Positions 31,338 through 44,057 of a stretch of DNA of 64,000 bases are shown piece by piece. The DNA comes from Aliarcobacter cryaerophilus (GTDB taxonomy: Bacteria; Campylobacterota; Campylobacteria; Campylobacterales; Arcobacteraceae), in the NCBI RefSeq assembly GCF_014352935.1, contig NZ_CP060694.1, forward strand, positions 1,364,001-1,428,000, given 5' to 3'. Below the pieces are notes generated by a model. That model searched no databases. It worked only from the letters and a program-made list of their open reading frames with translations, and was not told where the DNA came from. The translations under genes and the position numbers were made by a program. The number at the start of each line of letters is the position of its first letter. Position 1 is the stretch's first letter.

Positions 31338-31735
31338 GGGGATGACTTGGTATCGATTAGAGCAGTGAGTATAAGTTGCATGTCGGCCTGAACATGCCGT
31401 TACGCGGTTCATTTTTTTTAGACGCAAACAATACAAATTACGCTCCAGCTTACGCAAAAGCTGCGTAAGTTTAACAACTTATTGACTCGCCCAACGGCTT
31501 GAGTCTTCGGAGGCTAGCACTACAGATTCTATCTATGTAGGTAAATGCTGGTTCACAATAGATAGATTATCTTTGAGGAGTTGATTGAAACTTGAAGAGA
31601 AATTTTAAATCTTAGCTTTATGATTGCTTTTGGAAGTTGAGTTGTCATAGAGTGAAATTTTTCAACTTTGCTAAGCATGTAGACGCTTATATAAGCTGTT
31701 TTAAGACTGCGGTTCGATCCCGCACATCTCCACCA
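31338..31735 (+). ncRNA. ssrA: tmRNA
   Basis: Rescues stalled ribosomes and tags the unfinished protein for proteolysis. The ends pair as a tRNA-like acceptor stem (GGGGATG with CATCTCC, one G-U), followed by discriminator A and an encoded CCA at 31733-31735. A T-arm GGTTCGATCC precedes it. The tag frame runs 31424-31468 and encodes ANNTNYAPAYAKAA, ending at TAA; this is close to the Campylobacter tag. Its last 15 bases (31721-31735) also occur at 44660-44674 and form the attachment site of the island that starts immediately after it. Confidence 0.96.
31721..31735 (+). repeat. Island attachment repeat, left copy (within tmRNA)
   Basis: CGCACATCTCCACCA, the 3' end of tmRNA, repeated exactly at 44660-44674. 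The tmRNA gene stays intact because the inserted element brings or leaves a copy of the 3' end, which is the usual outcome of integrase-mediated insertion at ssrA. Confidence 0.8.
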
Positions 31736-31799
31736 TTATTACAAATACTTATAGTTTTATTATTTGTTTATCTTATAATTTATAGAAGATTTCAAAAAA

Positions 31800-32210
31800 T
31801 TAAATCTCTGCGTAAAATTCACATTTGCCTTTTTCTTCTATACACTCTTTTATTTTATTACCAAGTTTAAAATCTGCATATTCATGTATAATTTCAAAAG
31901 TTTCTTCTGGAGTTTTATTTAAAAATTTTGCCAACTCTTCATCTGTATAAACTTTTCTACTATTAAAAAAGTTATTGATTTTTTCAAGATTATGAGATAA
32001 ATTTTTTTTAATATTTTCTAATTCTTCTTCTACGTATTTTAAGTAATTTTTATCAAAATTGTAATGTATTTCAACAGGGAAAGTTTCTTTTGTATCTTCA
32101 TCTTCATAAAAAATAGTTTCACCTAAATATCCAAATCTATCTGCGGCTCTGCTACTTTGAACACCAACCATAAATTTGTAATCAATATCACCTGTTGTAA
32201 ATCTTCCCAT
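31800..32210 (-). CDS. Hypothetical protein beside the CARF nuclease
   Basis: Not recognised. 136 residues, no signal or membrane segment. The N-terminal third is distinctive (MGRFTTGDIDYKFMVGVQSS, then AADRFGYLGETIFY), the middle is a helical, possibly coiled-coil stretch (YVEEELENIKKNLSHNLEKI), and a C-terminal part has TDEELAKFLNKTPEETFEI, helix-turn-helix-like. The gene follows the CARF nuclease by 23 bases on the same strand, so the two are likely one transcript and may act together. It ends 65 bases inside the left end of the island. Confidence 0.65.
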   Translation of the reverse strand: MGRFTTGDIDYKFMVGVQSSRAADRFGYLGETIFYEDEDTKETFPVEIHYNFDKNYLKYVEEELENIKKNLSHNLEKINNFFNSRKVYTDEELAKFLNKTPEETFEIIHEYADFKLGNKIKECIEEKGKCEFYAEI

Positions 32211-32233
32211 ATTTTTTCTTGTATATAAAATTA

Positions 32234-33319
32234 TTAGCTTAGAAAATGATTTTTTATATCTTGTAAAAATCTAGCTTTATCAAAAGTTTTTGAGTGATGA
32301 ATTAATATCTCTGATGTTTTAGCTCTTGCTTTTGTTCCATTAGTAAATGAAGTTTTTACATTACCACATTGTGTAACTCTTTTATTATCATCACCAATAA
32401 CTAGTATCATACCTTTGCCATCATCATCAAGATAATCAATAACAGAATCTAGTTTATATACATAATCTTCACCTTGAACTGATTTTCTTAATTTACACTC
32501 AATTACGTGAAGATGATTATCTTTCATCATTAAAATATCAAATTCATTTTGTAAAGCTGGTGCAAACTCAACTTTTACATTAAACATTACATGATCAAAA
32601 TCAAAATTATCAGCAATTAGCCAATATATATACTCTTCAAATATAGTTCCTTGTATGAACATTCTATCGTTTAACTTATCAATTTTTTCAAGGTCTTTTT
32701 TTATTTCAGTATATCCATCTATTGAATCTAAAGTCTTATTTTGAAATAAAGCTGCAAATGTTTGATATTCTTCAAGATTTTTACAAATATTCATTACTAT
32801 ACTTTTTCTTGAATATGCTTCAACTTTATTACCCATAGATAAAAGGTTGTAGCCTTTAAGAATAAAGTGAGTTATGATATCTTTATTTTGAGAGATTTGT
32901 TTTTTTTGCATAGAGTTTTTTGTAACAATATTATATCCGTTATCAAAAATATCATATGCTATAAAATTTGCACCTTTTTCAAGTAATCTATCTGAAAGAA
33001 TTATAGTAGAAGATACTAATCCATCTGTTGCATTAAAATATATATTTTTAAAATCATTATTAGATATTTTAACTATCTCTTCAAAACAAGATATTATTGA
33101 ATCATAAGAGTCTTCATCAATTTTTATAGCATGTGTTTTAAAATTTAAATTATAAAATTCTTTAAATTTTTCTTGAGAATTCATAACTTTTTTTATCATA
33201 GTGGTTTCATATTTTGAATCATCATGAATTATTATATGTTTTTTAATTTTATCTTTAAATTCTACTAGTATTGGATAAATAGAAGAATCATGAATCCCAA
33301 GAAGTGAAATTAATATCAT
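32234..33319 (-). CDS. Card1/Can2-like CARF-PD-(D/E)XK nuclease (DUF1887)
   Basis: 361 residues. An N-terminal CARF-like Rossmann domain (MILISLLGIHDSSIYPILVEF, TIILSDRL, ANFIAYDIFDNGY), a middle winged-helix-like part, and a C-terminal restriction-type nuclease core: Glu in GTIFEEYIYWLIAD (about 223), Asp in ALQNEFDILMMK (about 260), and ECK in HLHVIECKLRK (about 273). This is the Card1/Can2 layout; those enzymes are switched on by cyclic oligoadenylate from type III CRISPR and cut nucleic acids. No cas gene is in the window, so its activator must come from elsewhere or be different. Catalytic residues appear intact. Confidence 0.78.
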   Translation of the reverse strand: MILISLLGIHDSSIYPILVEFKDKIKKHIIIHDDSKYETTMIKKVMNSQEKFKEFYNLNFKTHAIKIDEDSYDSIISCFEEIVKISNNDFKNIYFNATDGLVSSTIILSDRLLEKGANFIAYDIFDNGYNIVTKNSMQKKQISQNKDIITHFILKGYNLLSMGNKVEAYSRKSIVMNICKNLEEYQTFAALFQNKTLDSIDGYTEIKKDLEKIDKLNDRMFIQGTIFEEYIYWLIADNFDFDHVMFNVKVEFAPALQNEFDILMMKDNHLHVIECKLRKSVQGEDYVYKLDSVIDYLDDDGKGMILVIGDDNKRVTQCGNVKTSFTNGTKARAKTSEILIHHSKTFDKARFLQDIKNHFLS

Positions 33320-33394
33320 TGTGTTCCTTGTGTGTAGGTATTTAAAACAAAAGTGTATCTATTTTTAATTTATATTTATATTTTTAAATACATT

Positions 33395-33763
33395 TTAATG
33401 ATAATATTCATCATTGTTTCTAGAACTTCCAAAAAGTAAAAGAAGCAAAAGTAATCCAGCAAAAACTAAAATAAAAATAGCCCCCAATGCTACATTTAAA
33501 TCAGTTTTTGTTTTTATATATATAAAATTTCCTATCATAAGAATTAAAGAAAAAATAATAGCTAGATATAAATTAATTTCATTATGCTTAAAAAAGTAAT
33601 ATCCACAAATTATCAATATAAATGGAGTCATCATTATTCCAGCATTAAAAATATTTATAGGTCTATAATCATATTTTTCTTCACTATAATTATTTAGTTT
33701 CATTCCAAAAAATACAAGTCCAACTATAAATAATATTCCTATAAAAATTATTGTAATTTGCAT
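33395..33763 (-). CDS. Small four-helix membrane protein
   Basis: Not recognised. 122 residues with four hydrophobic segments (QITIIFIGILFIVGLVFFGM; GIMMTPFILIICGYYF; LAIIFSLILMIGNFIYI; ALGAIFILVFAGLLLLLLLF) and a short polar tail. AAGGGG precedes its ATG. It is one of a series of small envelope genes on the minus strand between the CARF nuclease and the WYL regulator. Confidence 0.65.
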   Translation of the reverse strand: MQITIIFIGILFIVGLVFFGMKLNNYSEEKYDYRPINIFNAGIMMTPFILIICGYYFFKHNEINLYLAIIFSLILMIGNFIYIKTKTDLNVALGAIFILVFAGLLLLLLLFGSSRNNDEYYH

Positions 33764-33800
33764 TTGTTTCCCCTTTTTAAGATATAAACATATAGTTTAA

Positions 33801-34145
33801 TTAGTATGAATTATTATCATTATCATAAGAAGTTTTATAATAATAATCATCATAAAAACTATTATTACTAGAGTCATTATTGTATGAACTATTGTAACTA
33901 TTATCAGCACTAGTATTATTATGTGATAAATCATTATGATTATCTTCAGCTCCACTTACACCATAAGGATTTCCATAAATATCTAAACAGCCTATCATTG
34001 GTGCACCATTAGCAGGATTAAAGTCTGTAGGAGCACAAAAATTATCTTCATCTTCTTCATGCTTTTTTAGATATTTATTTTCTTTACATGATAAAATAAA
34101 AAACAGTACGTAAATAATTGGTACAAATAAAAATAGAAGCTCCAT
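33801..34145 (-). CDS. Single-pass membrane protein with Asn/Ser/Asp-rich tail
   Basis: Not recognised. 114 residues: one N-terminal membrane helix (MELLFLFVPIIYVLFFIL), a middle stretch with PANGAPMIGCLDIYGNPYG, then a low-complexity tail of about 45 residues made almost only of Asn, Ser, Asp and Tyr. The tail is repetitive at DNA level too. AAAGG is present upstream. The tail is probably disordered; no function is suggested. Confidence 0.55.
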   Translation of the reverse strand: MELLFLFVPIIYVLFFILSCKENKYLKKHEEDEDNFCAPTDFNPANGAPMIGCLDIYGNPYGVSGAEDNHNDLSHNNTSADNSYNSSYNNDSSNNSFYDDYYYKTSYDNDNNSY

Positions 34146-34191
34146 TTTATATCCTTTAAAAAATCTACTGAGAAATATCTCAGTAGTAATA

Positions 34192-34587
34192 TTATCTAAC
34201 TAATCCACCCATAGTTTCACCTTCACTTGATGAAAAGCTATGTGTTTTTACAACATTTCCATCAAACAGTACTATTAATGTTTTTTTAGTATCATCTGTT
34301 CCTTTTACAAACAAATTTACAACAGGAACATAATTTACACCTTTTTGAACACTTCTTGAGTGATGATATTCCCATTTTTCTAAGCCATTATCCATAAAGC
34401 CAATATTTCTAGGCTCCCCAAATGCTTTTCTAACATCTGCTTTTGTTGATTTACCATCTTCTATCATACTCAAAATATTATCTTGAGTAACATTTTCGAT
34501 TCTATCATTTCCTGTTTTTACAGCACATCCTGTAAATAAAACTGTCCCTAACAATAAACTTGTTGTGATTAAACTAATTTTTCTCAT
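34192..34587 (-). CDS. BamE/SmpA-like lipoprotein
   Basis: 131 residues. The signal ends in LFTGC, so Cys21 would be lipidated. The mature part has the BamE/OmlA pattern: DNILSMIEDGKSTKADVRKAFGEPRNIGF, here seen as a helix-turn followed by GEP, then EKWEYHHS and a strand pair to ILIVLFDGNVV-like sequence (TLIVLFDGNVVKTH). Similar small domains occur in many envelope proteins, so a true BAM-complex role is not implied. Lies in the island, three genes downstream of the porin-like gene. Confidence 0.7.
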   Translation of the reverse strand: MRKISLITTSLLLGTVLFTGCAVKTGNDRIENVTQDNILSMIEDGKSTKADVRKAFGEPRNIGFMDNGLEKWEYHHSRSVQKGVNYVPVVNLFVKGTDDTKKTLIVLFDGNVVKTHSFSSSEGETMGGLVR

Positions 34588-34637
34588 TTTTTCCCTTTTA
34601 TTTTTAAATTTTCAATATAATTATATTTTTAATAATT

Positions 34638-34657
34638 GACAAAAATTGTCGTTTAAA
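34638..34657. promoter_or_regulatory. Inverted repeat and WYL-site-like half upstream of the lipoprotein
   Basis: GACAA-AAA-TTGTC (34638-34650) is a short perfect palindrome; next to it GTCGTTTAAA (34648-34657) matches nine of ten bases of one arm of the palindrome found before the WYL regulator. Could be a terminator of the small ORF or a second operator. Confidence 0.35.
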
Positions 34658-34778
34658 TAAATTTTAAATTTTTTCTAGAGTATATTTTTTTACTCTCTTT
34701 AACTCTAGTTATTGGTTTAAATCCCCAAACAACTCTTGTTTTAATACTACTTGTATCAATTGTTATTTTTGTTTTCAT
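34653..34778 (-). CDS. Small basic protein of 41 residues
   Basis: Too short for usual ORF cut-offs. ATG at 34778 with GGGAG six bases upstream, stop at 34653. The sequence is basic, MKTKITIDTSSIKTRVVWGF then KPITRVKESKKIYSRK, with a single tryptophan and a lysine/arginine tail. No similarity I can name with confidence. It lies 19 bases downstream of the porin-like gene, in the same direction, so it is likely co-transcribed. The well-placed ribosome site is the main support. Confidence 0.55.
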   Translation of the reverse strand: MKTKITIDTSSIKTRVVWGFKPITRVKESKKIYSRKNLKFI

Positions 34779-34797
34779 TTTAATCTCCCTATTTTAG

Positions 34798-35289
34798 TTA
34801 AAATGTATATTTTAGATTTAAATTAGCTTTTTCATAATCATAATCAAATCTTGAAGATGTCATATTGTAAATTTTATATTCAAAATTTAAAGCTATATTT
34901 TTTGTAATTCTATAATCAGCACCAGCTCCATAACCAAATCCTGCTCCATCTTTATTATCTATTCCTTGTAAAGCACCAGAACCTATTGTGTATAGAAACA
35001 AATCTTGATTAAAAATAGCATATCCTATTTTTAAATCACCAGATAATGTATAGACATCTATATTTTTACTATTTACATTTGGGTTACCATATGCAAAGTT
35101 TATTGATGTGCCAACAACAATATTTGAATCAAAGTATTTATTAAAACCATAGCCACCATTAAACTCTGTATATGATTCATCTAAAACTTTTGCGTTTGAA
35201 ACTCCAACATGAACATCTGAAACAAATTCAGCATATGCAACTGAAGACATAATTACTGAACTGATAAATATTTTTTTAAGATATTTCAT
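34798..35289 (-). CDS. Outer-membrane beta-barrel protein, small
   Basis: 163 residues. Signal peptide (KKIFISSVIMSSVAYA), then alternating strands with aromatic girdles (EFNGGYGFNKYFDSNIVVG, FGYGAGADYRITKNIALNFE) ending in a C-terminal Phe (LNLKYTF), the insertion signal for the BAM machinery. The size suits an eight-stranded OmpA/OmpX-type barrel. AAGGAGAAG precedes the ATG. Divergent from the WYL regulator across an intergenic region with a palindrome. May be surface-exposed; no ligand inferred. Confidence 0.75.
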   Translation of the reverse strand: MKYLKKIFISSVIMSSVAYAEFVSDVHVGVSNAKVLDESYTEFNGGYGFNKYFDSNIVVGTSINFAYGNPNVNSKNIDVYTLSGDLKIGYAIFNQDLFLYTIGSGALQGIDNKDGAGFGYGAGADYRITKNIALNFEYKIYNMTSSRFDYDYEKANLNLKYTF

Positions 35290-35331
35290 TCTTCTCCTTC
35301 TTGTGTTAATTTACGAAAGAATTATAAAATC

Positions 35332-35359
35332 TTTAAACGAATATATAAGTTCGTTTAAA
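35332..35359. promoter_or_regulatory. Palindrome between the divergent WYL and porin-like genes
   Basis: TTTAAACGAA, an eight-base spacer, then TTCGTTTAAA: a perfect ten-base inverted repeat in the 149-base divergent intergenic region. This is the place and form of an operator for a dimeric regulator, most likely the WYL protein encoded next to it. Confidence 0.6.
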
Positions 35360-35438
35360 AAAAATGATTAATTTAATAATTTATTTATATTAAAACGATA
35401 TATTTATCATCTTATTTTAAAATATATGGAATAGATAT

Positions 35439-36356
35439 ATGAAACATGATTACGATAGAACTGTCACAAGATTAATTACAATTCTTTCAAAATTTTCTCA
35501 CAATGAAATTGTAAATCCAAAAGATTTAGCAGAAGAGTTTAATGTAAGTGTTAGAACAATACAAAAAGATTTAAAAGAAAAGTTAATGCCAAATTTTCCT
35601 ATATATATGCACAAAAAAGGTGAATATAGATTAAGTGAAGGAGCTTCAATTACAAAATCTAATTTAACTAATGATGAAATGATTATATTATCTTTAGCTC
35701 TTTCAAAATTCAAAAATGTAAGTGATTTTGATATAACAACAGATAATCTTTTAAAAAAGCTTTTAAAACCAAATTTAAATAATCCTTATTTTATGAAATA
35801 TGAAGATATTGAAGATTTGGATATTGATTCAAAAATTGTACAAACTATTGAAGCTGCTATTGAGTATTCAAATATAATTGAAATAAATACAAAAAATGGT
35901 TCTAAAATAGTTGAAGCTTACAAAGTAGTGAATTATGGTGGAATATGGTATTTATTTGCAAGAGATACAAAAGATAGTAAAGTTAAAACATTTATGATAT
36001 CTAAAATAAAATCTGTAAATTTAACTTCAGAAAAATATACCTTTCCAAAACATGTAATTGAACAAATGCTTCAAAAGGCTCATTCTCCATATTATCAAGA
36101 TGGTAATACTTATAATGTAAAAGTAAAAGTTGATAGTGAGATTTCTCATTTTTTTGAACAAAAAGAGTTTTTACAATCACAAGAAATAGAAGATAAATTA
36201 GAAGATGGGAGTTTAATAATAAATTTTGAGATAAGTCATGATGAAGATATAGATAATATTATTAAATCTTGGCTACCACACATTGAAATAATTGAACCCA
36301 TTAGATTTAAAGAGAAATTGAAAAATGAATTGAAAGAGTATTTAAAAAGGATGTAA
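35439..36356 (+). CDS. WYL-domain transcriptional regulator
   Basis: 305 residues. N-terminal helix-turn-helix of the DeoR/HTH_11 type (LITILSKFSHNEIVNPKDLA, EEFNVSVRTIQKDLKEKL), then a WYL domain at about 140-215 (VVNYGGIWYLFARDTKDSKV with the variant W-Y-L reading IWYL) and the WCX C-terminal part to the end. WYL regulators often control phage-defence loci and may sense nucleic acid or nucleotide ligands. It precedes the large DUF4062-STAND gene by 69 bases in the same direction, and probably controls it and/or the divergent genes. Confidence 0.9.
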   Translation: MKHDYDRTVTRLITILSKFSHNEIVNPKDLAEEFNVSVRTIQKDLKEKLMPNFPIYMHKKGEYRLSEGASITKSNLTNDEMIILSLALSKFKNVSDFDITTDNLLKKLLKPNLNNPYFMKYEDIEDLDIDSKIVQTIEAAIEYSNIIEINTKNGSKIVEAYKVVNYGGIWYLFARDTKDSKVKTFMISKIKSVNLTSEKYTFPKHVIEQMLQKAHSPYYQDGNTYNVKVKVDSEISHFFEQKEFLQSQEIEDKLEDGSLIINFEISHDEDIDNIIKSWLPHIEIIEPIRFKEKLKNELKEYLKRM

Positions 36357-36425: not shown

Positions 36426-39400
36426 ATGAATCAAGGGAAAACATTTAGATTATTTATAAGTTCTACATTTAGTGATTTCTCAGTTGAGAGACGACTACTA
36501 CAGGAATATGTATTTCCAGAAATTAAAAAATATTGCAATGAAAGTAATTTAAATTTTCAACCTATAGATTTGAGATGGGGAGTTTCAAACGAAGCTCAAC
36601 TTGATCAAAAAACTCTTGAACTTTGTTTAGAAGAAGTAAGAGAATCTAAAATAAATCCTCATCCAAACTTTTTAATTATGGCAGGAGATAGATATGGTTG
36701 GATACCTCTTCCATATCTAATTGAAAGATCAGAATATGAAGCAATTGTAACTAATATTGAAAAAGAAGAAGATAAAGAACTTTTAAATATTTGGTATAAA
36801 CTGGATGAAAATCAAATACCTGCTTCTTATATTTTATGTGAAAGAAAAAATGAATTTGTAGAGTACTTAAATTGGGAAAAAGTAGAAAATCAATTAAGAG
36901 ATATTTTACAAAGTTCTGTAAACAAAACTTCATTATCAAAAAATGATAAAGAAAAATATTTTATGAGTGCAACTGAACATGAAGTTATAGAAGGAATATT
37001 TAAATATTTAAATACTACACCTTTTCAGGAAAGTATTTTACAACAAAATAAGACTTTATTACAGATTGATTCAGAAAATGTATATGCCTACATAAGAAAT
37101 ATAAAATCAATAGATGAATCATATAAAAACAACTTTATAGATAAAGATTTAAAAAATGTAAATAAATTTAAAAAATGTATAAAAGAATCTATAGATAATA
37201 ACAATATTTTAGAAGTTGATATAGAGTTAGAAAATATTTCTAAAGATAATATGAATGGAAGCTTATTATATAGCTATGAAACCATTAAAAATGATCAAAA
37301 ATCAATTTTTGTTGAAATAATGATCAATAATTTAAAAAAATCAATAAATTTATATAAAAATTCAATTAAAAAATTTTCTGAAGATGAACTTGAAGTTTTT
37401 GAACAAAAAAGTTTTAAAGAATTAAAGATGAAAAACTTTTTAGGAAGAGAAGAATCTTTACAAACTATTGATAAATATATAAATGACAATAACAATGAAG
37501 CACTTGTAGTTTATGGTAAAAGTGGACTTGGAAAATCTTCACTTATGGCTAAAGCTATAGATAATGCACAAAATAAGTATTTAAATAAAAAAATTGTTTA
37601 TAGATTTGTTGGTTCAACTGTAAATCTTACAACAACTTCGGAAATATTAATTTCAATTTTAAAAGAACTTGGAATTACAGAAGAGATAAGAAAAATTAAA
37701 AATTCTAAAAATTTACAAGAAGAGAATGAAGAAATTAAGGAGTTCTACTATAGAGTTTATGATCACTTAAAATCTATTAAAGAAGATACTATTATTTTTA
37801 TAGATGCAATTGATCAGTTAATAAATGAAGATGAATTTCTTTGGCTTCCAAAAAAGTTACCAAATAATTTAAAAATTGTAATTTCAGCTTTAAAAGATGA
37901 CAATTATAAAGAAGATAGTAAATATTTAGAAGATATTAACAAAGTAACCAAAAATACTTATGAATTAAAAGCATTTGATTTAAATAATGCAAAAGAACTT
38001 GTTATAAATTTACTAGAAAAATACAATAGAAAAATATCACAAGAACAGATGAATTATGTGCTTGATATTTATAAAAATATAAACTCTCCTTTATATCTAG
38101 TTGTTGCTATTCAAGATTTAAAAGATTGGAAATCAACAGATAAAAATAAAACTTTAGCAAAAACACAAAAAGATGAGATTAAATGTTTTATAAATAATTT
38201 ATCAAATATTCATCATCATAATAAAGAGTTTGTAAAAAGAGTGTTTGCTTATATTTCATTAACTGGCGGATTAAGTGAGAATGAATTATTAGAGTTATTA
38301 TCAAGCGATAAAGAATTTTTAAATACAATAGCCCCTGAAACATTTCATACGAACACTACAAAAGAACTACCTATTGTAATTTGGTCAAGATTGCATACTC
38401 ATATCAAAGAATTTTTAAAACTGGAAAATGTAGATAACCAAAATGTTATGAAATTTTTTCATAGAGAGTTTGATAATATTTCGGAACTTACTAAAGATGA
38501 ATATGAACACTTAATTGAACTTCTACAAAACTTAATGTTTAAATATCAAAATGAAGATTTCTATTCAAATAGATGGGGGAAATTATATATAGAGGTACTC
38601 AAAAAATATTACATAAAGTATAACATTTATAAATTTAAATATGATTCAAATACAAAAAATTACAGTTACTGTAAAAAAATAGTAATGAATTTAAGTAATG
38701 AAAATTATATTATTAAATTATTGGAATTTCTTAATGATATTGGGATGAGATTTAATGAATTAAACAAAAGTATCACATCTTATTATTTTGAAAGTTTATA
38801 TTTTGTATCAAAACTTTTATACAATCAAAATTCTAATAAATGGGTAACAAAATTAATAACAAGTGTATTTACTTTATCAATATTTTTACGAAATAATTTT
38901 AAAACAAATGAATCAATAAAGTTACAATTTGAAATTATAGAAATTTTAAAAAATTTATATAAAAAAAATCCAACTAAATGGAATAATTTTTATATTACAT
39001 GTTTAACAAATCAAGCTGCTTTTTTGAGAAATACTGGTAATAAAATTGAATCAATAAAATTTAACAAAGAAGCTTTAAGTATTACAAAATGCCTATATGA
39101 AAGTGATACAGACATATGGTGTTATCACTATACAACTATATTAAATAATTTAGCTATGTCACTAAAAGATGTTGGTCATGTCAGTGAAGCTATAGAATTA
39201 GAGAGAGAAGCTTTATGCATAAGAAAACCTCTACATGAAAATGATCCAATTAGTTGGAATAAAGAGTATACAATTAGTTTATCAAATTTAGCAACTTCAT
39301 TAAAAAACAATGGTCAAGTTGAAGAAGCTATTGAATTGGAAATAGAAGCTTTAAGAATAAGAAAATCTATGTATATAAATGACCCAGATATATATGTTGA

Positions 39401-40214
39401 AAATTATATTTCTAGTTTAATTAATTTAGGAACTTCATTTTATAAATATAATAAAATTGAAGAAACTTTAGAATATTGTAAAGAAGCTTATGAAATTACT
39501 AAGCCACTCTATGAATCTAATCAAAATAAATGGTCTGATTTATTTACAAAAAGTTTATCAAGTTTTGGAACTTCATTAGAAAGCATTGGCAAAATTGATG
39601 AAGCTATTAAATTACAAAAAAAAGCTTTGGAAATAAGAAAATCATTATATGAAAATGATTCAAATATTTGGTCTAATGTTTATATTAAAAGTTTAATTTC
39701 CATATCACTCTCTTTAAAAAATTTTGGAGATATAATACAAGCTAAGATATTTCAAGAAGAAGCTTTATTTATAGTAGAACATTTGTATAAAAAAGATTCA
39801 AATATATGGATTGATAAATATTTACAATGTTTAATTAATTTATCTTCTTATTACAATCAGTTGGAAAAAACTACAGATTCTATAAATATGTTAAAAAAGG
39901 CTTTAAACATATTAAGACCTTTAAATAAAGAAAAATCAAATATTTTTGTCAAAGATTATTTGATAGTTTTGACTAATATAAGTAATTATTTATATAAAAT
40001 AGGTAAAGTTAATCAGGCTATACAATATTATAAGGAAGCAATAACAATAATTGAACCTTTATATTTTAAAAATTTTTTTGACTATAATAAGATATATATA
40101 AATATTTTAAATGGTTTAAGTTATTGCTATACAGATTTAAAAAAATATAAAGAAGCAAAATTATACAAAAGAAAATCAGCAAATATTATGAAAAATCTTG
40201 AAGATAAAGAATAA
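36426..40214 (+). CDS. DUF4062-STAND NTPase-TPR protein
   Basis: 1262 residues, a candidate immune sensor. DUF4062 domain at about 1-105 (FRLFISSTFSDFSVERRLLQ, PIDLRWGVS, IMAGDRYGWIPLP); a linker; a STAND/NACHT-type NTPase with Walker A YGKSGLGKSS near 363-373 and Walker B IIFIDAIDQL near 456; a helical middle; then about nine TPR-like repeats of roughly 48 residues from about 835 to 1250 (LSNLATSLKNNGQVEEAIEL, LNNLAMSLKDVGHVSEAIEL). The same domain order occurs in eukaryotic NPHP3/TEP1/NWD1-like proteins and in bacterial defence NTPases. AAGGG precedes the ATG. Nucleotide-dependent activation is inferred. Confidence 0.88.
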   Translation: MNQGKTFRLFISSTFSDFSVERRLLQEYVFPEIKKYCNESNLNFQPIDLRWGVSNEAQLDQKTLELCLEEVRESKINPHPNFLIMAGDRYGWIPLPYLIERSEYEAIVTNIEKEEDKELLNIWYKLDENQIPASYILCERKNEFVEYLNWEKVENQLRDILQSSVNKTSLSKNDKEKYFMSATEHEVIEGIFKYLNTTPFQESILQQNKTLLQIDSENVYAYIRNIKSIDESYKNNFIDKDLKNVNKFKKCIKESIDNNNILEVDIELENISKDNMNGSLLYSYETIKNDQKSIFVEIMINNLKKSINLYKNSIKKFSEDELEVFEQKSFKELKMKNFLGREESLQTIDKYINDNNNEALVVYGKSGLGKSSLMAKAIDNAQNKYLNKKIVYRFVGSTVNLTTTSEILISILKELGITEEIRKIKNSKNLQEENEEIKEFYYRVYDHLKSIKEDTIIFIDAIDQLINEDEFLWLPKKLPNNLKIVISALKDDNYKEDSKYLEDINKVTKNTYELKAFDLNNAKELVINLLEKYNRKISQEQMNYVLDIYKNINSPLYLVVAIQDLKDWKSTDKNKTLAKTQKDEIKCFINNLSNIHHHNKEFVKRVFAYISLTGGLSENELLELLSSDKEFLNTIAPETFHTNTTKELPIVIWSRLHTHIKEFLKLENVDNQNVMKFFHREFDNISELTKDEYEHLIELLQNLMFKYQNEDFYSNRWGKLYIEVLKKYYIKYNIYKFKYDSNTKNYSYCKKIVMNLSNENYIIKLLEFLNDIGMRFNELNKSITSYYFESLYFVSKLLYNQNSNKWVTKLITSVFTLSIFLRNNFKTNESIKLQFEIIEILKNLYKKNPTKWNNFYITCLTNQAAFLRNTGNKIESIKFNKEALSITKCLYESDTDIWCYHYTTILNNLAMSLKDVGHVSEAIELEREALCIRKPLHENDPISWNKEYTISLSNLATSLKNNGQVEEAIELEIEALRIRKSMYINDPDIYVENYISSLINLGTSFYKYNKIEETLEYCKEAYEITKPLYESNQNKWSDLFTKSLSSFGTSLESIGKIDEAIKLQKKALEIRKSLYENDSNIWSNVYIKSLISISLSLKNFGDIIQAKIFQEEALFIVEHLYKKDSNIWIDKYLQCLINLSSYYNQLEKTTDSINMLKKALNILRPLNKEKSNIFVKDYLIVLTNISNYLYKIGKVNQAIQYYKEAITIIEPLYFKNFFDYNKIYINILNGLSYCYTDLKKYKEAKLYKRKSANIMKNLEDKE

Positions 40215-40266: not shown

Positions 40267-40551
40267 TTAAATATATGCTTGTACTCTTGATAAGATAATC
40301 TTATTTTTTAATTTATTTTTTACTTTTCCTAAAAAAGAATATTTTATATTATTTTCTTCATCAAAAATCTTTTCTATTTCATACTCTGATAAGAAATCTT
40401 CTAAAATCTCTATTTCAAAATCAGATTCTAATTTTTTACTGAACTTATGAACTCTAATTATTGAACCTGCTCTAGCTTTATTTAAGGATTTAAAAGGAAT
40501 AAATTTTGCTTCAGATAAAGTTAAAGATTTCGATTCAAATATTTCTATAGC
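40267..40551 (-). CDS. -1-frame C-terminal extension of the DUF4062-TPR protein
   Basis: An open frame of 94 codons that begins exactly at the A_AAA_AAG heptamer and ends 7 bases before a hairpin. It contains no ATG, GTG or TTG, so it cannot be translated on its own by a normal start. Composition is protein-like (for example AKFIPFKSLNKARAGSIIRV, then EDFLSEYEIEKIFDEE). Read through a -1 shift it makes a fusion of about 728 residues with the upstream 635-residue protein. The alternatives are a sequencing error in the A6 run or a true frameshift mutation. Confidence 0.6.
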   Translation of the reverse strand, partial: AIEIFESKSLTLSEAKFIPFKSLNKARAGSIIRVHKFSKKLESDFEIEILEDFLSEYEIEKIFDEENNIKYSFLGKVKNKLKNKIILSRVQAYI

Positions 40552-42452
40552 TTTTTTATATTTTTTATATTTATTTTATATTCATCAATTTTATGGTTTA
40601 TAGATTTTAGAGTTAAATTAAATTGATTCTCATAATTTTTTTCTTTGCTTAATTTATCACTCAAAAATCTTTCTTCTTCATCCAAAAATGAATTATTAAT
40701 TTCTTGTATCTCTAAATTTTTATTTTTAAATATTTTCTTGACTTGTCTTGAAAAGTAATAAATAGCAGAAGTTGTAAGTATACTTGAAATAAAAGTAAAT
40801 ATAAATAAATTATAATTATTTTTATAAAATAATATTGATAAAAGTACGAGTGTACCCAGTACAAAAAACATATTATTTCTCTTAGTTATTGAAATAAAAG
40901 TATCATTTTTAGCTTTTTTATCAATAATTTCAATCTTATTAATTTTATCTTTTTCTAATTTATATATAGATTCATCAAAAGAAATTTTTAGCTTTTTATA
41001 TTTTTCATTTAATTCATTTTCTAAAAATATTTTTTCAGATTCAAACTTATCTATACTATCATTTGATAATATTTTTAAATTATTACTAATGATTTTATAT
41101 TGACTAAGTATCCCTCTTCTAGCATTTTGCCATAATTCTGTAATTGAATTTTGAGAAATATTAAAATTATATATTGGCATATTGAATATCTCTCTAATAT
41201 TATTTGTATTATATAAAATAGCATCTGTAGTTTTATATAATTTAGCTTTCATTTCTTTAAAATACTCATCAATTTCATTTTTATATGGAATGAAAAAAGG
41301 ATCTGAATTTATTTGTTCCAAAAAATCCATTTTTATTTTTAAACATTCATCTATTGCCTGTTTAGCCTCTACATTTTCATTAAAAGAAAATAAAAATTTT
41401 GCTTTTTCATAATATACTTTAGCAAAATTTTTTGTCAATTCCTCAGCAAGTTTTATATATTTCTCACCTTCATGTTTTTTGTCAGAAAATATAGAAGCTT
41501 GAACAATAAGTAAATAACAATGAGAAGCTCTAAAAATATTATTATTTTTTTCAGCAATTTTAGCAGCTCTTAAAAGATATTCTTCTATTTCAAAAAATAA
41601 ACTTTTTTTAGCACTTGTAATATATAATTTAGCTAACCAATAATTTGTTTCAAAATCCAATGGTTTGAGATCTAATGCTTTTTTTAAGTGTTTTATTGCA
41701 GTAGAATAATCTCTAATGTCTATTGCATATTGAGCTTCTTGTTTTTGTTCGATTGCAGCTAATTTATTGGGAATTTTTAATAATTCAAAACCTTCAATTT
41801 TATCATTATTATCAATAATTAAATTAATTTCTTCATCTTCTTGATATTGGTTATCTAATAAAATACTATCACTATCTTCTAATAAGAATTCATCATCAAC
41901 ATTATTTTCAATAATTTCTAAATCTACTGTATTTAAATTTAAATCTTTGTTATTAATTAAATTTAATTCATATAGAGAGGTTAATAAATCAACAGAAATT
42001 TTTTCTGCTATATCTTTTACATTATCTGTATCTTCAAATTTTTTAATTCTATGGTTTCTTTCAAGTTCTCTTTGCCAATTTGACATATTGATATCATCTG
42101 AATATTCAATAATACTTTTATAACTTTTTCCAATACAAAAAACTAAAACTCTAGTATTCGAGTTATCTTTTATAGCTTCTTTGTATTCTAAATGTGTATA
42201 AGATAATTCTTCCCCATCAGGTATAGTTCCATATGATTCACCAACTAATAGTATCATAACCTCTGATTTTTTTGCATAAAAAAGTGATTCAGCCAAAGGA
42301 GATCTTGTCGATGCTTCATTGTTATTTAAATCAATAGCTTTCATAAATTTGTATTGATTTATTTTTTCTCTTAATATTCCACGTAACTCTTTAAATTCTT
42401 CAAATCTTGAAGCTAAAAATATTTCATAATGACTATTTTGTGTTTCTAACAA
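40545..42452 (-). CDS. DUF4062-TPR membrane protein (0-frame product)
   Basis: 635 residues. DUF4062-like domain at about 1-150 (YEIFLASRFEEFKELRGIL, VMILLVGESYGTIPDGEE, LEYKEAI); an acidic linker; TPR-like helices from about 240 to 357 (IDIRDYSTAIKHLKKALDL); a long coiled coil; two membrane helices near 524-565 (FFVLGTLVLLSILFY, FISSILTTSAIYYF) and a further coiled coil. The start is TTG 42452, with AGGA eight bases upstream. The gene lies 18 bases after the RyR gene. The 0-frame stop is four bases after a slippery heptamer, see the extension entry. Confidence 0.8.
   Translation of the reverse strand: MLETQNSHYEIFLASRFEEFKELRGILREKINQYKFMKAIDLNNNEASTRSPLAESLFYAKKSEVMILLVGESYGTIPDGEELSYTHLEYKEAIKDNSNTRVLVFCIGKSYKSIIEYSDDINMSNWQRELERNHRIKKFEDTDNVKDIAEKISVDLLTSLYELNLINNKDLNLNTVDLEIIENNVDDEFLLEDSDSILLDNQYQEDEEINLIIDNNDKIEGFELLKIPNKLAAIEQKQEAQYAIDIRDYSTAIKHLKKALDLKPLDFETNYWLAKLYITSAKKSLFFEIEEYLLRAAKIAEKNNNIFRASHCYLLIVQASIFSDKKHEGEKYIKLAEELTKNFAKVYYEKAKFLFSFNENVEAKQAIDECLKIKMDFLEQINSDPFFIPYKNEIDEYFKEMKAKLYKTTDAILYNTNNIREIFNMPIYNFNISQNSITELWQNARRGILSQYKIISNNLKILSNDSIDKFESEKIFLENELNEKYKKLKISFDESIYKLEKDKINKIEIIDKKAKNDTFISITKRNNMFFVLGTLVLLSILFYKNNYNLFIFTFISSILTTSAIYYFSRQVKKIFKNKNLEIQEINNSFLDEEERFLSDKLSKEKNYENQFNLTLKSINHKIDEYKINIKNIKKL
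40551..40557 (-). promoter_or_regulatory. A_AAA_AAG slippery heptamer
   Basis: Read on the minus strand, in frame with the DUF4062-TPR gene, the codons are ATA-AAA-AAG-CTA-TAG. This is the same heptamer as in E. coli dnaX. A -1 shift leads directly into the 94-codon extension. I see no strong stem-loop after it and no Shine-Dalgarno-like booster before it, though the region is very AT-rich. Confidence 0.55.
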
Positions 42453-42470
42453 TTTAATTTTCCTAAGTTA

Positions 42471-44057
42471 TTATTTAAATTTTATTAATTTTTTTACTAT
42501 GCAGCTAGATAATAATATAATAAATGTTTTTAACCATTCATATTTAGTTATCTTTTTTACTTTCTTTTTATTATACTTATAGTCAATAATCATATCAATA
42601 TTTTTAACCATAGCTCTATCTTTTGCTTTATTGCTTTCATCTAAATTATCATATGGTACAAGACAGTGATGTAATTTTATTTTTGGATTTCTTTTTTTAG
42701 CATATTTCCATCCATTTAAATAATGAAAAGCACTCCATCTATTATGTTCACATCTAGCTAATTTTTCTATAGATAAATCACTATTATCAATCTTTAAATA
42801 TTTTTGTTTTATTTTTATATGATCAGCAGAAGCTCTATTAGACTCTTTTTCAAAATAGCTTCTTTCTTCCCAAGGTTTTTGCTTACTTGGTGATGCGTTT
42901 TCATTATATATATTATTTGTTGCTTTTGCTCTAATATCTCTTATTTCATCTATTAAATACTCTTTTGTACAAATATCTCTTGTTAGTCCAAAAGTAAAGA
43001 AATTTTCAAATGAATTTTGATTTGTTTTTATACAATTACTAATATTATATTCATTAAAAATTGCCAATATAATATTTGTTTTTAATTCTTTTTTTTCTAT
43101 TTCTTTAAGATAAGTAATATTTGAAAGATTTGCTGCAATTTCAAGATTAGTTTCTTCATTTTCATAACAAACAAATATATTTGTTAAATTCATATCATAC
43201 CAAAAATCTTTCATATATGATAATTTTGAATCGATATCAAATTTTATATATTTAATTTCTATATTCGAAATGCTATTTATCTCTGTATAATTTAATTCTA
43301 CTTTTTGTTGAAATTTTTTTGGATTTTTATCTAGACAATATATGGTTAATTTATTTTCGTTTGGTAATTGTCCCATTATACAAGCTTGAAATATTACTTC
43401 ATGTGCTAGATTAGTATTTCCTAAAATAACAATTGAGTAATCTTCATTAGATGAAATTATTTTATCATTTTCTCCATCAATATCATATTTTTTAAATAGT
43501 TCTCTTGAAGCATCTTCATAATATGAAAAAATTTTAATATTTTTACCTTCAAGTAATCCATTATCCTTATGAAAATATCTTAAGTTTCTATTTTCAATCT
43601 GTACATGAATATTTACATTTTTGTTTATAGCTAGTATATGGCTTACTATTTCTATATTATCAAGATCTTTACCTGATGAAACTATTATATGTTTTTTCTT
43701 TTCTAAATTTAATTTTATTAATGTTTCATGATTTTTTGGATTAGCAATTAATACACTTACATTATTTGCTTTCATATATTCACTAATATACAAATTTTCT
43801 TTATTTTGTTCTACTATTATTATTTTACTATTTAACTCTAGTTCACTATCAATATAAGTACGATTTTTATCACAAAGCCCTATTACAATAATTACATTTG
43901 AACTAAAATATTTATTATAAATAAAAAATTTAATTGAATTCCACCAATGAAATAATTTAAAACCACCATATATGATTACTAATAAAGAAATACCTGTAGC
44001 TATAGCATCAATTACTTTCCAAAATTCACTATTAACAATTTCAATTAAATAGTACAT
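42471..44057 (-). CDS. Membrane-anchored TrkA-N/RyR-domain protein
   Basis: 528 residues. N-terminal membrane helix at about 18-42; two Rossmann-like TrkA-N (RCK-type) units at about 54-175 (SSNVIIVIGLCDKNRTYIDS) and 208-330 (YSIVILGNTNLAHEVIFQAC); a C-terminal RyR-type domain at about 432-490 (LARCEHNRWSAFHYLNGWKY, with HCLVPYDNL) and a hydrophobic tail near the end. RyR domains in bacteria are proposed to bind nucleotide-derived signals in conflict systems. There is no channel domain attached. AAGGA stands about ten bases before the ATG. Likely one transcript with the DUF4062-TPR gene. Confidence 0.82.
   Translation of the reverse strand: MYYLIEIVNSEFWKVIDAIATGISLLVIIYGGFKLFHWWNSIKFFIYNKYFSSNVIIVIGLCDKNRTYIDSELELNSKIIIVEQNKENLYISEYMKANNVSVLIANPKNHETLIKLNLEKKKHIIVSSGKDLDNIEIVSHILAINKNVNIHVQIENRNLRYFHKDNGLLEGKNIKIFSYYEDASRELFKKYDIDGENDKIISSNEDYSIVILGNTNLAHEVIFQACIMGQLPNENKLTIYCLDKNPKKFQQKVELNYTEINSISNIEIKYIKFDIDSKLSYMKDFWYDMNLTNIFVCYENEETNLEIAANLSNITYLKEIEKKELKTNIILAIFNEYNISNCIKTNQNSFENFFTFGLTRDICTKEYLIDEIRDIRAKATNNIYNENASPSKQKPWEERSYFEKESNRASADHIKIKQKYLKIDNSDLSIEKLARCEHNRWSAFHYLNGWKYAKKRNPKIKLHHCLVPYDNLDESNKAKDRAMVKNIDMIIDYKYNKKKVKKITKYEWLKTFIILLSSCIVKKLIKFK

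Follow-up and report, generated by a model that had tools for sequence, protein, structure and literature searches.

A CARF nuclease in an Aliarcobacter assembly without Cas10: a probable effector cassette detached from a type III-B CRISPR locus

What does a CARF nuclease answer to when no CRISPR system accompanies it? Enzymes that join a CARF domain to a PD-(D/E)XK nuclease are usually activated by cyclic oligoadenylate made by the Cas10 protein of type III CRISPR systems. We analysed a stretch of 64,000 nucleotides from Aliarcobacter cryaerophilus (contig NZ_CP060694.1, positions 1,364,001 to 1,428,000), hereafter the window, whose own numbering is used for its features. An earlier reading of these letters (the original prediction) had proposed that it holds an orphan nuclease of this kind with a partner gene and no CRISPR nearby, which might respond to another nucleotide or form a stand-alone system.

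The nuclease gene lies at 32234-33319 on the minus strand and encodes 361 amino acids. Its open reading frame, profile matches and predicted structure all identify it as a CARF + PD-(D/E)XK nuclease of the DUF1887/CARF4 type, and the Card1/Can2-like assignment was confirmed at that site. The PADLOC profile CARF4--CARF_PDDEXK (PDLC01891) matched it over its full length (E 2.6e-110) and the Pfam family Card1_endonuc (PF09002) did so over the Pfam cut-off (E 4.5e-12). Compared with Cdn1, Can2 and VC1899, an AlphaFold model built from a 20-row alignment (mean pLDDT 92.4) matched along its whole length, residues 1-361, with Z values of about 27; the Can2, Card1 and Cdn1 entries gave Z values of 22-27 with the exception of cA3-bound Cdn1 (16.6), and sequence identity to the solved members was 13-18%. 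The protein thus has the N-terminal CARF fold fused to a C-terminal nuclease that characterizes this family. A search of phages and viral contigs found no copy of it.

As had been proposed, the catalytic residues are intact. E228 of an FE motif (32636-32638, minus strand), N258 and the core E259-x-D261 ... E274-x-K276 (32492-32545, minus strand) do not vary among the 29 aligned relatives, a set that, like the family tree, omits G088 and G369 (internal stops), G241 (a piece of 238 amino acids), G305 (39 amino acids) and G167 (lost by the ORF filter). Their counterparts, according to the available parts of the respective papers, include Glu276 and Asp278 in Can2 (PMC7969007) and the set E274, D310, E323 and K325 in Cdn1 (PMC12825302). 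The ligand pocket is another matter. The Cdn1 residues T9, Q11, T37, K104 and Y124 are given in the accessible text of PMC12825302 as cA4 residues conserved in all Can2-family clades; at these positions, assigned from a sequence-profile alignment and not by superposition, the window protein has G8, H10, D34, V102 and Y122. Only the Tyr is kept, counting Y122 as such because Card1 pairs Tyr with Tyr although the Can2 profile alignment is off by one there, so that four of the five contacts (S/T, Q, T, K and Y) of the Can2 and Card1 effectors are replaced. The cA4-binding Lys is absent from all 29 relatives, while the Tyr is kept in 28 of them and N127 in all 29; 25 of the 29 have Asp at position 99, which lies in the loop whose Lys binds phosphate in Can2. 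Pocket columns were more conserved than the comparison value (0.68 vs 0.47), a figure from which we draw no proof, the columns having been picked partly after inspection. The window protein is therefore a member of the DUF1887 fold family whose pocket does not match that of a Can2 activated by cA4. Since the pocket is unlike the cA4 pocket, the suggestion that the enzyme responds to another nucleotide appears plausible.

The original prediction saw no cas gene in the window, and this extends to the whole genome sequence, one contig of 2,020,388 bases from which plasmids may be absent. Profiles for Cas1 and RAMP proteins, as well as for the CD-NTase-type families SMODS (PF18144) and mCpol (PF18182), had no match in it. 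The best match to a Cas10 palm model reached 33 bits and was a GGDEF-type protein with a GGEEF motif, not a Cas10. The CRISPR repeat of a related locus (that of genome G303, described below) had 0 copies in the window genome vs 23 in G303 itself, which served as positive control.

Clues to the origin of the nuclease came from its neighbourhood. A block at 31770-36344 is shared with an 82,987-base Arcobacter plasmid, p82, at 93.5% identity over 4.6 kb, and its ends are where the neighbours change. It begins 35 bases past the 3' end of the tmRNA gene (ssrA, 31338-31735, plus strand); a second copy of the last 25 bases of that gene, allowing up to 3 mismatches, was not found in the window, so that an integrase-made repeat is not supported. 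Its minus-strand genes comprise the partner, an open reading frame of 136 amino acids (31800-32210) that, as originally described, follows the nuclease, here at a distance of 23 bases; the nuclease; a protein of 122 amino acids that by eye appears to be a small membrane protein (33395-33763; 96.7% identical to p82); a small protein of 114 amino acids with, by eye, an NPxxGxPM motif (33801-34145), whose gene varies more than any other in the block (70.6%); a BamE-like lipoprotein of 131 amino acids (34192-34587), below the Pfam cut-off; and an outer-membrane beta-barrel protein of 163 amino acids (34798-35289; PF13505, E 7.9e-12; 96.9%). A WYL-domain regulator diverges from this nuclease arm on the plus strand (35439-36356) and is 95.7% identical to its p82 counterpart and 90.1% to the WYL protein directly preceding nrn-corA in G303. 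The seven genes have in p82 the order WYL, beta-barrel, lipoprotein, two small proteins, nuclease and partner, with 95.8% identity for the nuclease and 96.3% for the partner. By eye, an NPxxGxPMxG motif is common to the small protein at 33801-34145 and another at L070:5502-5756, both near a nuclease.

To the right of the WYL gene, the window and its relatives part. The window has there a DUF4062-STAND/NACHT-TPR protein of 1262 amino acids (36426-40214, plus strand), whereas p82 and G303 have a cas operon in that slot. In p82 the genes run NERD-helicase, fused DHH-CorA, cmr1, cas10, cmr3, cmr4, cmr5, cmr6, cas1 and cas2; this type III-B locus adjoins the block and includes a fused NrN-CorA gene. 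G303 is a complete Arcobacter-group genome of the same genus, and its locus runs WYL, NrN-CorA, cmr1, cas10, cmr3-6 and cas1, followed by a 92-amino-acid gene of the size and place of cas2, a CRISPR array and then a nuclease with 67% identity to that of the window. The large G303 cas1 product (743 amino acids) is presumably an RT fusion. The Cas10 proteins of p82, G303 and a third genome, G044, keep the GGDD motif, and all three loci contain the elements of a SAM-AMP type III-B system, that is Cas10, CorA and a SAM-AMP degrading enzyme. A type III Cas10 is thus found beside the nuclease in p82 and G303, and the window genome has neither Cas10 nor Cas1 nor a RAMP protein. The right-hand portion of this island, at 40545-44057, holds a second DUF4062-TPR protein, preceded by a minus-strand gene for a TrkA_N + RyR-domain protein.

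These observations lead us to favour, with a probability of roughly 0.6, the interpretation that the nuclease and its partner are the left arm of an Arcobacter NrN-CorA (SAM-AMP) type III-B locus, a seven-gene block now separated from its cas operon. The best reading is then that of a detached type III-B effector cassette, intact and without its synthase. The statement that there is no CRISPR here consequently holds for the window genome and fails by ancestry, the only other copy of the pair being beside a type III-B locus. WYL regulators have been reported, in the available part of PMC9122601, to co-localise with defence systems, and a WYL regulator between the two arms fits defence-gene regulation. 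By analogy with Can2, Card1 and Cdn1, binding of a nucleotide messenger by the CARF dimer would close the nuclease domains, which, as in Can2 and Cdn1, would then cut DNA and/or RNA non-specifically. As no messenger synthase was found in the window genome, the nuclease is most likely silent, a state that would end once a plasmid like p82 brought in a type III system or some other source supplied the ligand; the type III-B system of such an incoming plasmid would be the likeliest ligand supply in this strain. A cas operon was probably once present in the window and then lost, rather than never joined.

The distribution of the nuclease complicates this picture. It occurs in 28 of 298 genomes of the order. 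Cas10 was counted at 50 bits or more (65 genomes), since no score fell between 52.0 and 38.7 bits; the Pfam family PF22335 alone misleads, as 237 of the 298 genomes match it at E 0.001 because GGDEF proteins do so. By the 50-bit rule, Cas10 is present in 10 of the 28 nuclease-bearing genomes vs 55 of the other 270, a weak enrichment (one-sided Fisher p 0.056). On the family tree, Cas10-bearing genomes do not group together (10 changes vs a shuffled mean of 9.4-9.5). We read the surroundings of 30 copies, the 29 rows of the tree and G305. Five have a type III cas10 no more than 10 kb away (p82, G303, G027, G015 and G044), two are fused to NrN (G055 and G200), two border a Mokosh-like operon (G114 and G305; MkoA-like helicase, E 1.4e-92), two close a MotA-MotB-SAVED-TM operon (G296 and G043), one is beside a WD40-caspase gene (the second G043 copy), six directly follow groEL (G100, G145, G014, G061, G074 and G134) and one is beside Cas6 and WYL genes (G246); the remainder are the window's own copy and ten with other or unreadable surroundings. 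The relatives with 77% and 72% identity (G296 and G043) belong to operons devoid of cas genes, in genomes where neither Cas10 nor RAMP was found. Together with the weak Cas10 enrichment and the lack of clustering, these relatives count against our preferred reading, since the p82 arrangement may be a secondary insertion beside a type III locus.

Alternatively, the nuclease would be a portable, Cas10-independent effector adopted by various defence operons, associated here with WYL or STAND proteins and served with a nucleotide by the host, a phage or another synthase. Its relatives directly beside Mokosh-like, MotA-MotB-SAVED-TM and WD40-caspase operons and groEL speak for this, as do the 18 of 28 nuclease-bearing genomes without Cas10 under the 50-bit rule and the catalytic residues, whose invariance in all 29 relatives indicates that these copies are maintained. 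However, no synthase is known for such operons, adjacency is not function, and the G305 case rests on the first 39 codons at a contig end (all 39 residues identical to those of the window). The nearest copy of the window block also sits beside a type III-B locus, and we regard a portable effector as possible but rather unlikely.

Several of these surroundings deserve description. The PADLOC MkoA/MkoB genes, which we take to be Mokosh, form a kinase-helicase operon at L147:194-9218 (G305) and at L070:88-4770 / L035:10001-14683 (G114), one of the two genomes having the CARF nuclease at the downstream end of this operon and the other directly upstream of it. The MotAB-SAVED operon is found at L034:5114-9988 (A. 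vandammei), L067:10757-15624 (G043) and L126:400-5183 (G246), in genomes where no Cas10 reached 50 bits. It encodes a protein of 560-611 amino acids, another of 197-249, MotA, a ZorB-like MotB/OmpA protein and a membrane SAVED protein, and the CARF nuclease is its last gene in two of the three loci. The larger protein of L034 carries an RNDIAH motif that, by eye, we take to be HEPN-like. This operon has the appearance of a motor-type defence system, as yet unnamed, that includes a receptor for cyclic nucleotides. The second G043 copy heads a different array (L068:2990-10211), in which three unassigned proteins and a WD40-caspase protein of 1004 residues follow the nuclease. The genes preceding the nuclease at L075, L076, L077, L078, L096 and L098, which we take by eye to be groEL, define copies that make up six of the nine members of one clade, four of the six genomes being without Cas10 under the same rule; in this position the nuclease looks like a resident chromosomal gene.

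The detached cassette could also be a mere recent relic, whose cas operon was lost by recombination, leaving a nuclease unused and not yet decayed. The absence of Cas10 from the window genome and the coincidence of the block ends with the changes of neighbours would agree with this. Nevertheless, all open reading frames of the block are open in the window, and between the window and p82 the nuclease has a dN/dS ratio of 0.16 and the partner, with just 11 substitutions, one of 0.23; four other block genes range from 0.10 to 0.18. The block genes are not decayed and have been under purifying selection between the two, although selection along the p82 branch also enters this ratio, which can thus neither date the loss nor show selection after the separation. 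A relic of this kind is, in our estimation, quite improbable.

The partner gene has a much narrower distribution than the nuclease. Spacing and strand suggest that both are carried by one transcript. In a tblastn search of 72,556 plasmids the two occurred together only in the three records of p82, which represent one plasmid lineage and hence one independent case. Among the 298 genomes the partner was matched in two, the window's own and, weakly (E 7e-4), one that has no nuclease; no partner was found in the other 27 nuclease-bearing genomes. Its presence in one of 28 makes the partner a local companion of the nuclease and not half of a conserved pair, so the idea of a stand-alone two-gene system, which would recur in unrelated genomes, did not survive. 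Family profile searches with the partner (including Pfam and PADLOC) gave no match worth the name, a fold search gave none at E 0.001 or better with a weak model (pLDDT 67), and none was seen in viral contigs. Two similarities were dismissed as chance: those to an H. pylori phage (E 0.1 to 1), in an open reading frame without the N-terminal motif of the partner, and one to Acetoanaerobium (E 4), inside an unrelated long open reading frame. That the partner restrains the nuclease as in a toxin-antitoxin pair, as their common strand, 23-base spacing and joint presence in p82 would allow, is highly improbable given its absence from the 27 genomes, including those of the 77% and 72% identical relatives, and its want of any family or fold match.

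If the pair is indeed the nuclease arm of an NrN-CorA locus, its ligand might be sought in SAM-AMP. In two relatives, CARF, nuclease and NrN domains form a single protein (G055, 612 residues, L091:2533-4371; G200, 592 residues, L090:14391-16169). Residues 361-600 of the former and 353-588 of the latter match the solved NrN chains of PDB 9lq9 (E 1.5e-51 and 4.8e-45), both with the DHH motif retained, and the G055 fusion adjoins an NrN-CorA gene at the contig start. The two fusions share 36% identity over their length and belong to different families (f6 and f15), and the fusion is therefore old. According to the available text of PMC10600005, the substrate of NrN is SAM-AMP; cA2 to cA6 are not degraded. 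If receptor and degrading enzyme handle the same messenger, their fusion is to be expected. Moreover, the nucleases of p82, G303 and G044 are within 11 kb of NrN-CorA. Because of the two fusions, these three neighbours, the lost cA4 Lys and D99 in the phosphate loop, we tentatively consider it possible, if less than probable, that the messenger sensed by this family is not cA4 and, in the NrN-CorA branch, is SAM-AMP; the nuclease would there be an effector beside the CorA channel. The acidic side chain of D99 would seem to favour the cationic SAM moiety over phosphates. The fusions being only 24 to 27% identical to the window nuclease, this argument reaches the window via p82 and G303, whose nucleases are beside NrN-CorA.

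A universal SAM-AMP reading was rejected, as the nucleases of G027 and G015 are in type III loci with Csx20, which in the accessible part of PMC12409355 is a cA4-specific ring nuclease at normal enzyme levels; the many copies with neither NrN nor Cas10 nearby also speak against a general rule. For the family at large, its mobile defence contexts and NrN fusions suggest that its activating signal may differ from the usual one. A literature search covering titles and abstract openings, with few subscription papers, found no description of a CARF-NrN fusion or a SAM-AMP CARF nuclease, which leaves novelty unproven; the CorA channel is the sole SAM-AMP receptor named in the available parts of PMC10600005, PMC12669027 and PMC12255297. 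Were the SAM-AMP reading true, a CARF domain would read a non-cyclic messenger, a nuclease effector would be added to the SAM-AMP pathway, and detached copies such as that of the window would be spare effectors awaiting this signal or obtaining it otherwise. The NrN-fused nuclease makes the existence of other SAM-AMP receptors directly testable with synthetic ligand.

Three known systems are useful for comparison. Chi et al. describe fused nrn-corA genes in A. butzleri and related species as belonging to the SAM-AMP kind of type III-B and name wyl genes in a figure legend; in the available text the word CARF appears once, in the reference list, and CARF nucleases are not discussed under that name (PMC10600005). 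The gene set of this Aliarcobacter butzleri system, with fused nrn-corA and wyl, is the same in p82 and G303, whereas the window has the nuclease arm only. Can2, Card1 and Cdn1 resemble the window nuclease in domain order, whole-chain fold and the catalytic E, E-x-D and E-x-K, but it differs from them in keeping only the Tyr (Y122) of the five cA4 residues. The third is VC1899 of Vibrio cholerae, an orphan DUF1887 protein without type III that, like the window nuclease, has the nuclease residues and lacks those for cA4, and that cA4 does not regulate according to the available part of PMC7969007. That the CARF nuclease recurs in genomes lacking Cas10, and next to several defence operons unrelated to one another, bears on what such orphan CARF proteins respond to. 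VC1899 has Val115 at the Tyr position according to that same source, whereas the window family keeps the Tyr and, unlike VC1899, has conserved residues of its own in D99, Y122, D123 and N127.
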